A stretch of 40,221 bases of DNA from a virus, in the IMG/VR virus record IMGVR_UViG_3300044675_005140, positions 1 through 40,221 of that record, one strand, 5' to 3'. The notes beneath the pieces are model-generated. The model was not told where the DNA came from. It searched no databases and worked only from the letters and a program-made list of their open reading frames with translations. The position numbers were made by a program, and so were the translations under genes. Below, piece by piece: positions 33,949-39,442 of the stretch; within the stretch, counting starts at the first letter, position 1, and every line of letters begins with the position of its first letter.

Positions 33949-33990
33949 TCTTTGTAAAGAGAGTGGAATAATCCACTCTCTTTTATTTTT
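33931..33990 (+). terminator. Tandem 3' hairpins, second an intrinsic terminator
   Basis: Hairpin 1: ACAAAGACTA (33931-33940) with TAGTCTTTGT (33946-33955), ten pairs; the TAG stop is its first three paired bases. Hairpin 2: AAGAGAGTGGA (33957-33967) with TCCACTCTCTT (33972-33982), eleven pairs, then TTATTTTTT. Confidence 0.9.
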
Positions 33991-34662: not shown

Positions 34663-34711
34663 AACACCTTATACTAGTTCAAAGGGTGAAAATAATACTA
34701 GTTACTTCCTT

Positions 34712-34727
34712 ACTGTTAGCAAACAGT
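34712..34727 (+). ncRNA. Compact hairpin ACTGTT/AACAGT
   Basis: ACTGTT (34712-34717), loop AGCA, AACAGT (34722-34727). No T-run follows, so probably a structural hairpin, not a terminator. Confidence 0.4.
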
Positions 34728-34732
34728 GACAA

Positions 34733-34922
34733 ACCTGTGGGGCTACTATTGGGTTCTATATTTCTCCTGCAAAGAGACTTATAGTGCTACATATCATTTG
34801 CAGTGATATAATCCAAAGTTAGTGCAGACTTAAAAATCAGGTATTTTACATATAGCATAATGATAAAGCTATGTGAGTTTAATTTAAACTATTTCGTCTT
34901 ATAGTATAGCAGAGCCCCTGGT
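34733..34922 (+). ncRNA. Candidate multi-branched RNA domain (190 nt)
   Basis: Closing helix: ACC (34733-34735) and GGGGCT (34739-34744) with AGCCCC (34913-34918) and GGT (34920-34922), unusually GC-rich for this DNA. Enclosed: CTGCAAA/TTTGCAG (34767-34773, 34797-34803), CATATAGC/GCTATGTG (34849-34856, 34868-34875, one G-U) and the palindrome AGTTTAA-t-TTAAACT (about 34877-34891). No gene fits. Not matched to a known RNA family. Confidence 0.4.
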
Positions 34923-34957
34923 AGGTGACTGGACTATTTGTATGATTGTATTTATCT

Positions 34958-35017
34958 ATTCTCCTCCACGAGATTCCACTTGGGAGAATACAGCTGACTG
35001 AAGTGGAATTCAGTTTT
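34958..35017 (+). promoter_or_regulatory. Attenuator-like set of competing hairpins
   Basis: Three pairings compete. A: ATTCTCC (34958-34964) with GGAGAAT (34983-34989). B: ATTCCACTT (34973-34981) with AAGTGGAAT (35001-35009). C: ACTGAA (34997-35002) with TTCAGT (35009-35014), followed by TTTT-type sequence. A and C can coexist; B interlocks with A and excludes C. This is the logic of an antiterminator (B) versus terminator (C). It lies upstream of the three small genes at 35178-35679. Ligand or trigger unknown. Confidence 0.5.
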
Positions 35018-35046
35018 ACTCTGTAACTATAGAACTCAGCGGTTCT

Positions 35047-35071
35047 TGCTATGATGTAGGAAGTCATGGCA
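35047..35071 (+). ncRNA. Hairpin TGCTATGA/TCATGGCA
   Basis: Arms 35047-35054 and 35064-35071, eight pairs including one G-U, 9-nt loop. One of several helices filling the 34580-35177 gap. Confidence 0.4.
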
Positions 35072-35125
35072 GTTATGCAGTTTATGCAATTAAGCATATT
35101 TTATTATTCTAATTAACTATCAAGT

Positions 35126-35144
35126 CCTGTGTACCTAGCACAGG
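35126..35144 (+). ncRNA. Hairpin CCTGTG/CACAGG
   Basis: CCTGTG (35126-35131), 7-nt loop, CACAGG (35139-35144), flanked on both sides by the direct repeat CAAGTCCT (35121-35128 and 35146-35153, the first overlapping the stem). It ends the structured gap before ATG 35178. Confidence 0.45.
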
Positions 35145-35177
35145 CAAGTCCTCAAAACATTCTTAAAACTAAAAATT

Positions 35178-35312
35178 ATGATTTTTAAAACTATGATTGA
35201 ATTGTTCCAAGGTAAGTTAGCCAAAGTTCAATATGTGAAGTATTCTAATGGTAAGCAAGTAAAAAGAGTACTTGATAAGAATAATATTCCGGAAGCAATT
35301 ATTGAGCTATGA
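35178..35312 (+). CDS. Small basic protein (44 aa)
   Basis: Reads MIFKTMIELFQGKLAKVQYV, then KYSNGKQVKRVLDKNNIPEA. The TGA stop overlaps the next ATG (ATGA), which supports translation. Soluble, basic, no recognisable motif. First gene of a three-gene mini-operon preceded by the structured gap and the attenuator-like element. Confidence 0.55.
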   Translation: MIFKTMIELFQGKLAKVQYVKYSNGKQVKRVLDKNNIPEAIIEL

Positions 35313-35452
35313 TAAAAGAATATCTTTCATTTACAATAGGCCTGGGTGTAATAACAGGCCTTATTATATCATTAGGTGAATATATTACTGAATGTATAAT
35401 AGCATCAACTATCTTTTGGGCATTGATGCTTATAACAATGTTAAAAAACTAA
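35309..35452 (+). CDS. Small membrane protein (47 aa)
   Basis: Starts MIKEYLSFTIGLGVITGLII and continues with SLGEYITECIIASTIFWALM and a short basic end (MLKN). Two hydrophobic segments (about 5-21 and 27-44), so probably a small inner-membrane protein. ATGA overlap with the preceding gene; two bases separate it from the next ATG. Size and topology suit an ion-flux or exclusion peptide. Confidence 0.6.
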   Translation: MIKEYLSFTIGLGVITGLIISLGEYITECIIASTIFWALMLITMLKN

Positions 35453-35454
35453 AT

Positions 35455-35679
35455 ATGGAACAGAACGGAAAAATTGCATTTGCATTTACTTTATATGCTA
35501 TCATTACATTCTTTGTTGGATGTATTGTAGGAGCATACAATGTTAAATCTAAGACTATCAAGACAGAATACTTCTTGGAAGTCTCTGAGGATTCTATTTG
35601 GGTAGAATCTCAATCAGGTAAAGTGTATCAAGGTAAATATATTGACCTTGACTCCCTGATTTGCATGGACAATATCTAA
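35455..35679 (+). CDS. Membrane-anchored small protein (74 aa)
   Basis: Start ATG 35455 (MEQNGKIAFAFTLYAIITFF) chosen since it follows the previous stop by two bases; a longer frame from 35392 overlaps that gene. N-terminal membrane segment (about 8-27), then an extracytoplasmic-looking domain (NVKSKTIKTEYFLEVSEDSI, WVESQSGKVYQGKYIDLDSL). Reads like a one-pass anchor with a small beta domain. Followed exactly 10 nt after the stop by the conserved hairpin at 35690-35712. Confidence 0.6.
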   Translation: MEQNGKIAFAFTLYAIITFFVGCIVGAYNVKSKTIKTEYFLEVSEDSIWVESQSGKVYQGKYIDLDSLICMDNI

Positions 35680-35713: not shown

Positions 35714-35901
35714 ACTCTCATCCAATTGCAGGAATCAGGTTTTATATAGTTGTGTTTAGGCACGTAATGCTATATAAAATGAGTAGGGTGACTCCTTCTG
35801 AAAGAAAGACTACCTCTGGGATTATAAGTGTGGTGATATTATCATCCATGAGTAACGCTTAACAAGTAGTAAGAGGTCAAGGGTTGCAACCTTGTGAGAG
35901 T
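35714..35901 (+). ncRNA. Cloverleaf-like structured RNA with T-arm-like hairpin (188 nt)
   Basis: P1 ACTCTCA/TGAGAGT (35714-35720, 35895-35901), P2 TTTTATATAG/CTATATAAAA (35740-35749, 35770-35779), P3 GAGT/ACTC (35781-35784, 35791-35794), P4 ACCTCT/AGAGGT (35812-35817, 35872-35877), P5 CAAGG/CCTTG with a 7-nt loop (35878-35882, 35890-35894). P4, P5 and P1 abut with no spacer, as in a tRNA's variable, T and acceptor arms. The 3' end is followed by ACTAA, as after the tRNA at 39354. Could be a tRNA-derived or tRNA-like RNA with a large insertion. No anticodon arm can be assigned. Confidence 0.45.
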
Positions 35902-35914
35902 ACTAATTAAATTA

Positions 35915-36162: not shown

Positions 36163-36270
36163 TTACAAGAGTTTGGAGTCTAGAATGTCTTTTACTTGTA
36201 ATCCCTTCTTTGACCTTTCTGTGGGTAATCAGAAAGTATTAATGCACCATTCTCACTTCCCAAGGGTGAG
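36163..36270 (+). ncRNA. Series of hairpins in the 36149-36493 gap
   Basis: TTACAAG/CTTGTAA (36163-36169, 36195-36201), CTTTCTG/CAGAAAG (36215-36221, 36230-36236) and CTCAC/GTGAG (36252-36256, 36266-36270), all perfect. With the element at 36272-36346 they fill most of this 345-nt gap; no gene fits in it. Confidence 0.45.
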
Positions 36271-36271
36271 C

Positions 36272-36346
36272 AGTTGTAATAGGCTCATTGCTGTAAAGCA
36301 TGTAAGTAGTGGAAACAGTTAGGTTCAAATCCTACATATTACAACT
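36272..36346 (+). ncRNA. tRNA-like element (75 nt), degenerate
   Basis: Perfect 10-bp closing stem AGTTGTAATA/TATTACAACT (36272-36281, 36337-36346). Just before the 3' strand is a T-arm-like hairpin TAGG-TTCAAAT-CCTA (36320-36334... loop 36324-36330). An inner TGCT/AGCA hairpin lies near 36289-36300. No good anticodon arm, T33 or D-loop GG, so not a working tRNA as I read it; a decayed or mimic tRNA is possible. Confidence 0.4.
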
Positions 36347-36427
36347 GAGTGCAGAGGGATTAATCTAGGATATGATACGTAGACCTAGCTACAAACTGAA
36401 ACAATGGAGGGTTATAGATGCTCCCGA

Positions 36428-36450
36428 GCAGGTGCAAGGCCTGCATTTTT
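36428..36450 (+). terminator. Hairpin GCAGG/CCTGC with T-run
   Basis: GCAGG (36428-36432), 7-nt loop, CCTGC (36440-36444), then ATTTTT. A weak intrinsic terminator that would end the RNA of the preceding gap before the 260-aa gene. Confidence 0.45.
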
Positions 36451-39353: not shown

Positions 39354-39427
39354 AGTCCCATAGCTCAGCTGGATAGAGCAACTGCCTTCTAAGCAGTAGG
39401 TCACAGGTTCGAATCCTGTTGGGACTA
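39354..39427 (+). tRNA. tRNA-Arg, anticodon UCU
   Basis: Canonical cloverleaf: acceptor AGTCCCA (39354-39360) with TGGGACT (39420-39426), D-arm GCTC/GAGC, anticodon arm ACTGC-CTTCTAA-GCAGT giving anticodon TCT, T-arm ACAGG-TTCGAAT-CCTGT. All stems are perfect. Discriminator A, no encoded CCA (next bases CTA). It reads AGA, a codon used often in this AT-rich phage, and probably supplements the host's Arg tRNA pool. Confidence 0.97.
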
Positions 39428-39442
39428 CTAAAAATTAAAATT

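Follow-up and report, generated by a model that had tools for sequence, protein, structure and literature searches.

Hatchet ribozymes cleave at the base of P1, between C-1 and position 1, leaving a 2',3'-cyclic phosphate on the upstream product and a 5'-OH on the downstream one; minimal hatchets do so without downstream sequence, and about 90% of hatchets carry a P0 hairpin whose sequence is unconserved (PMC4604424). In the 2015 study hatchets were found computationally, in metagenomes only and in no completely sequenced genome (Weinberg 2015; PMC4604424). Known ribozymes tend to occur near other ribozymes (PMC10085705), and in gut phages the theta ribozymes, which are HDV-like and lie beside tRNAs, have been proposed to trim the adjacent RNA (PMC10879173). 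Phages also encode the ornate RNAs ROOL and GOLLD, multi-hairpin molecules with kissing loops and of unknown function (PMC12286853).

The locus described here lies in a virus record with phage head and packaging genes, the whole 40,221 nucleotides of which are called the window below; its terminase is 24–27% identical to those of crAss-like phages (e.g., cr55_1 and cr130_1), and it carries a tRNA-Arg (TCT) gene at 39354–39428. A full-length member of the hatchet class, with a P0 hairpin in front, is present in the window: the match to Rfam RF02678 covers positions 1–133 of 133 with 81.6 bits (gathering score 51, E 1.6e-15), and P1–P4 are present with the conserved CCUGUGGGGC and GUGCAGAC...AAAAUCAGG. 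This ribozyme had escaped the first-pass annotation, which concerned a set of three interlocked pairings, A, B, and C, beginning about 115 nt downstream of the hatchet end. Both belong to one conserved RNA of about 445 nt (about 34706–35153) with the hatchet at its 5' end; behind this come several hairpins that covary, two more loop contacts and, last of all, a covarying 3' hairpin (Table 1). The described hatchet class lacks the 300-nt 3' domain found here. As with the theta ribozymes, a phage ribozyme stands where it could trim adjacent RNA, but it is a hatchet with a kissing-loop domain rather than an HDV-like ribozyme beside a tRNA. Compared with ROOL and GOLLD, the RNA is shorter, has another sequence, is headed by a ribozyme and is placed directly before open reading frames (ORFs). 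The Rfam covariance models of ROOL and GOLLD gave no match in the window, nor in the 3' domain at E<10, and as no credible family was found between 34843 and 35177 even at E<10, the 3' domain is without an Rfam family.

Table 1. Features of the conserved RNA and its surroundings (window coordinates).
Feature	Position	Strand	Basis or remark
P0 hairpin (ACTAGT...ACTAGT)	34673–34702	+	sequence; immediately 5' of the predicted hatchet cleavage site
Hatchet ribozyme	34706–34842	+	Rfam RF02678 match
Hairpin H1 (CATATAG/CTATGTG)	34848–34876	+	-8.4 kcal/mol fold; kept in 19-locus alignment
Hairpin H2 (AGTTTA/TAAACT)	34876–34890	+	near-invariant in alignment
Variable cassette, exchangeable stem-loop	34892–34953	+	alignment identity; no counterpart in L042, L047
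Hairpin A	34957–34990	+	8-bp stem, 34957–34964 with 34983–34990; loop bears kissing strand TTCCAC (34974–34979)
Kissing pairing B, loop to loop	34973–35009	+	ATTCCACTT (34973–34981) with AAGTGGAAT (35001–35009), 9 pairs; 6-bp core 34974–34979/35003–35008
Invariant linker GCTGA	34993–34997	+	complementary to hairpin D loop TCAGC (35036–35040)
Hairpin C (ACTGAA/TTCAGT)	34997–35014	+	loop GTGGAA kisses loop A
Hairpin D	35032–35045	+	loop TCAGCG nearly invariant; 3 of 4 pairs with compensatory changes
Hairpin E	35049–35069	+	6 of 8 pairs compensatory; loop TAGG 35057–35060
Hairpin G, sequence and length variable	35083–35098	+	inverted repeat in window, L003, L005; other alignment rows by eye
3' hairpin F	35126–35144	+	3 of 6 pairs compensatory, 100% paired; -9.1 kcal/mol
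3' end of conserved RNA	35153		AAGTCCTC
44-aa ORF	35178–35312	+	24 nt 3' of the RNA; opens a series of three small genes
Two further small genes	35309–35452, 35455–35679		resemble membrane peptides

Relatives were found in about 30 IMG/VR contigs, which hold 26 distinct full-length RNAs; scans anchored on a protein, the motif, the hatchet or the 3' end all reached the same set, while no homologues were found in GenBank phages or in GTDB genomes. The linkage of the two parts is strict. A hatchet is located 187–288 nt upstream in all 29 kissing-loop loci, and conversely the domain comprising hairpins A–F accompanies every hatchet of the window's subtype for which enough sequence is available. 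With the RNA model R1 each whole record gave one strong match, always with one hatchet. The sole additional match with E<0.01 (L017:167–293, 19.1 bits) falls in a stretch coding for an acidic protein and was rejected as a second copy or paralogue.

When checked against the window sequence, pairings A, B, and C proved to be real and correctly placed. Hairpins A and C together form the minimum free energy fold of 34950–35020 (-17.4 kcal/mol), and none of 3000 dinucleotide shuffles contained an interlocked trio of this topology (A of at least 7, B of at least 9 and C of at least 5 bp), nor did any other place on either strand of the window, so that the pairings far exceed chance expectation. By its folding energy alone the stretch stands out only mildly (z -1.2 to -2.1), so the support for the trio comes from its topology and from comparison, not from energy. 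The comparison was made with 23 distinct relatives aligned to the RNA model (alignment A4). The structure that was scored comprised hairpins A, C, D, and E together with the kissing core and the linker–D contact. In it 97.3% of cells were paired, compared with 34–44% when it was slid by 1–3 columns, and changes on both sides were observed at 14 pairs against 7.1 in shuffles. Stem A was paired in all cells and has compensatory changes at three pairs: T-A to C-G (L045 and L014), A-U to G-C (L047), and C-G to U-A (L014). In hairpin C the fifth pair changes from A-U to G-C in L014 and L045, and D and E covary freely. B was also 100% paired across the 23 sequences, with its outer pair changed from A-U to C-G in L014, and A, C and the kissing core were maintained together in every one of the 23. 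It had been supposed that A plus C would stop transcription and B permit it, the helices excluding each other; their joint maintenance, along with the compensatory changes in A and C, speaks against this, and a pseudoknot, mentioned only in passing in the first-pass annotation, is the right description. A loop of one stem that pairs with the loop of the next is a kissing complex, in which A and C are compatible with B. L014 illustrates this: there loop A is reduced to 9 nt (A-CTTCCAC-G), a plain kissing-loop size, hairpin C reads CTGG-TGTGGAAG-CCAAG, and what persists is thus two hairpins with complementary 7-nt loops. The alignment therefore gives good support to a fold in which A and C are joined by a kissing loop of 6–7 bp.

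The six kissing-core pairs are invariant in all relatives, several of which were collected with search patterns in which part of the motif was fixed (L014, L040, and L042–L047 were instead collected via ORF, stem-A or hatchet anchors), and B thus rests on complementarity, the edge change, and its fit with A and C. The changes in the A and C stems are confined to a few lineages. Conservation for coding was considered and rejected, as loop A and the junction differ between loci by one, two or more nucleotides in length and share no reading frame. Two further contacts are indicated outside the trio. The E loop pairs with the loop of F (CCTA, 35134–35137) in 24 of 24 sequences, with a single compensatory change, A-U to G-C, in L038. 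The linker between A and C is complementary to the D loop, with four core pairs invariant in 23 of 23 sequences, but since both partners are near-invariant this contact is put forward as a proposal only. In the midst of this conserved RNA the cassette between H2 and A is swapped among loci: its mean pairwise identity is 0.35, against 0.91 in the motif next to it, four or more unrelated versions occur, and it is cleanly absent from L042 and L047. Such hypervariability suggests recombination between phages.

The RNA is followed by changing genes. In 22 of the 25 loci whose sequence extends past it, the RNA ends 19–46 nt before a same-strand ATG, and the genes that follow are of at least six unrelated kinds: families of 44-, 78-, and 50/51-aa proteins and proteins of 61, 59, and 300 aa. 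The 44-aa ORF of the window has no PHROG match. The earlier view of a structured RNA in leader position holds, while its attenuator logic is not supported, and a portable processed leader fits the unrelated genes better than a gene-specific switch. With moderate confidence we read the RNA of about 445 nt as belonging to uncultured crAss-like phages, in which it would form a structured 5' leader (or RNA) that is portable and processes itself. The polycistronic transcript would be cut by the hatchet while nascent, at about 34708/34709 as predicted from the model alignment. The upstream message would then have the P0 hairpin at its 3' end, and the downstream RNA would begin with a 5'-OH and the folded ribozyme. 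Next to the ribozyme hairpins A and C would lock via TTCCAC/GTGGAA, the linker would probably bind the D loop, and the loops of E and of the 3' hairpin F would bind each other; the result would be a compact domain just before the A-rich ATG region. The likely job of such a domain is to provide a defined, structured and stable 5' end for whichever small gene comes next. Cleavage in vivo, and a stabilising or translational effect of the RNA, are what we infer from this arrangement.

At the three other loci with sequence behind the RNA (L036, L037, and L042) no ORF is found within 46 nt; this makes the leader role less secure and leaves room for a discrete RNA. It is conceivable that the unit is a stand-alone phage RNA, acting in trans or as a multimer like ROOL and GOLLD, which is inserted between genes and has its 5' end trimmed by the hatchet; the conservation of the unit while both flanks change, and its several kissing contacts, as in the ornate RNAs (PMC12286853), would agree with this. 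Neither a conserved 3' terminator nor a second ribozyme was found directly behind the RNA, however, and the regular position of a downstream ATG and the lack of an Rfam ornate-RNA match also speak against such a molecule, which we hold to be rather unlikely. The obligate linkage in both directions would be expected if the A–F domain were a peripheral or allosteric part of this hatchet subtype, aiding the folding of the ribozyme or gating its cleavage. This is improbable, given that minimal hatchets cleave on their own (PMC4604424) and that hatchets exist without the domain: the hatchets of L043, L048, L051, and L073, which belong to other virus contigs and other subtypes, are followed by different non-coding sequence.

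There remains the transcription attenuator or riboswitch first suggested for the site, in which A plus C would terminate near 35015 and B, or A plus B, would allow read-through, with a ligand or translation as the signal. As in known attenuators and riboswitch leaders, the helices share bases and the element is located in front of ORFs. Kissing loops are moreover known from riboswitch aptamers such as that of the purine riboswitch. Unlike those systems the RNA has no conserved terminator, no mutually exclusive helices and no tie to one gene. The window has just TTTT 3' of C, and a scan of the window for terminators did not return the site; among 26 sequences the longest T run downstream of C varies from one to four and is four in just three, so that C was rejected as a terminator hairpin with a conserved U-run. 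Covarying hairpins also continue for about 140 nt beyond the supposed stop, and no known riboswitch aptamer class was matched in the window at the Rfam gathering level or in the 3' domain at E<10. With all three helices conserved together and unrelated genes downstream, A/B/C probably does not serve as a genetic stop/go switch, and an attenuator of this kind is very improbable.

Returning to the portable leader, it is tempting to speculate, as a tentative proposal, that these phages possess a new class of RNA in which a hatchet is permanently coupled to a kissing-loop domain of about 300 nt and moves as a cassette between genes, within a 'ribozyme-punctuated' transcript that hatchet and twister-like elements would cut into units with ready-made structured ends. 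With the kissing-loop RNA, a consistent partner of the hatchet may have come to light for the first time. One hatchet subtype in crAss-like phages has a constant partner, a conserved and covarying domain present once per record with changing genes behind it, and this provides a concrete and testable setting for the role of the hatchet; the 3' domain at the same time adds a structured RNA that has no Rfam entry.

The twister-like element, a second conserved structured element, is found at 36241–36360 of the window and is arranged as AATGCACCA, a hairpin with the invariant loop TTCCCAAG, a stem CAGTTGTAA/TTACAACTG, and GAGTGCAGAGGG. The relatives contain 22 distinct copies, in which the stems were read by eye. 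The long variable stem CAGTTGTAA/TTACAACTG holds an insert of 20–170 nt, and the hairpin stem has four sequences, all of them complementary (CTCAC/GTGAG, CCTGA/TCAGG, TCTAC/GTAGA, and TCAGC/GCTGA). We take the order of the parts to resemble that of the twister ribozyme. The Rfam twister-P1 and twister-sister models gave no match to the element, and as a candidate twister-like ribozyme variant it is only a lead.

The place of P0 is taken by variable hairpins in many relatives. One hairpin module, CAAGGGTTGCAACCTTGTGAGAGTA, stands before the hatchet in L036, before the twister-like element in L014 and L024, and in the window before an ORF (35880–35905); in view of these differing contexts the 5' hairpins look interchangeable. 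At 36428–36444 the window has a hairpin, GCAGGTGCAAGGCCTGC, followed by ATTTTT, with related hairpins in L009 and directly 5' of the L039 hatchet. A strong terminator-like hairpin of 12 pairs followed by TATTTTTT is located at 33956–33983, 3' of a 174-aa gene, and shows that ordinary terminator-like sites are present in this phage.
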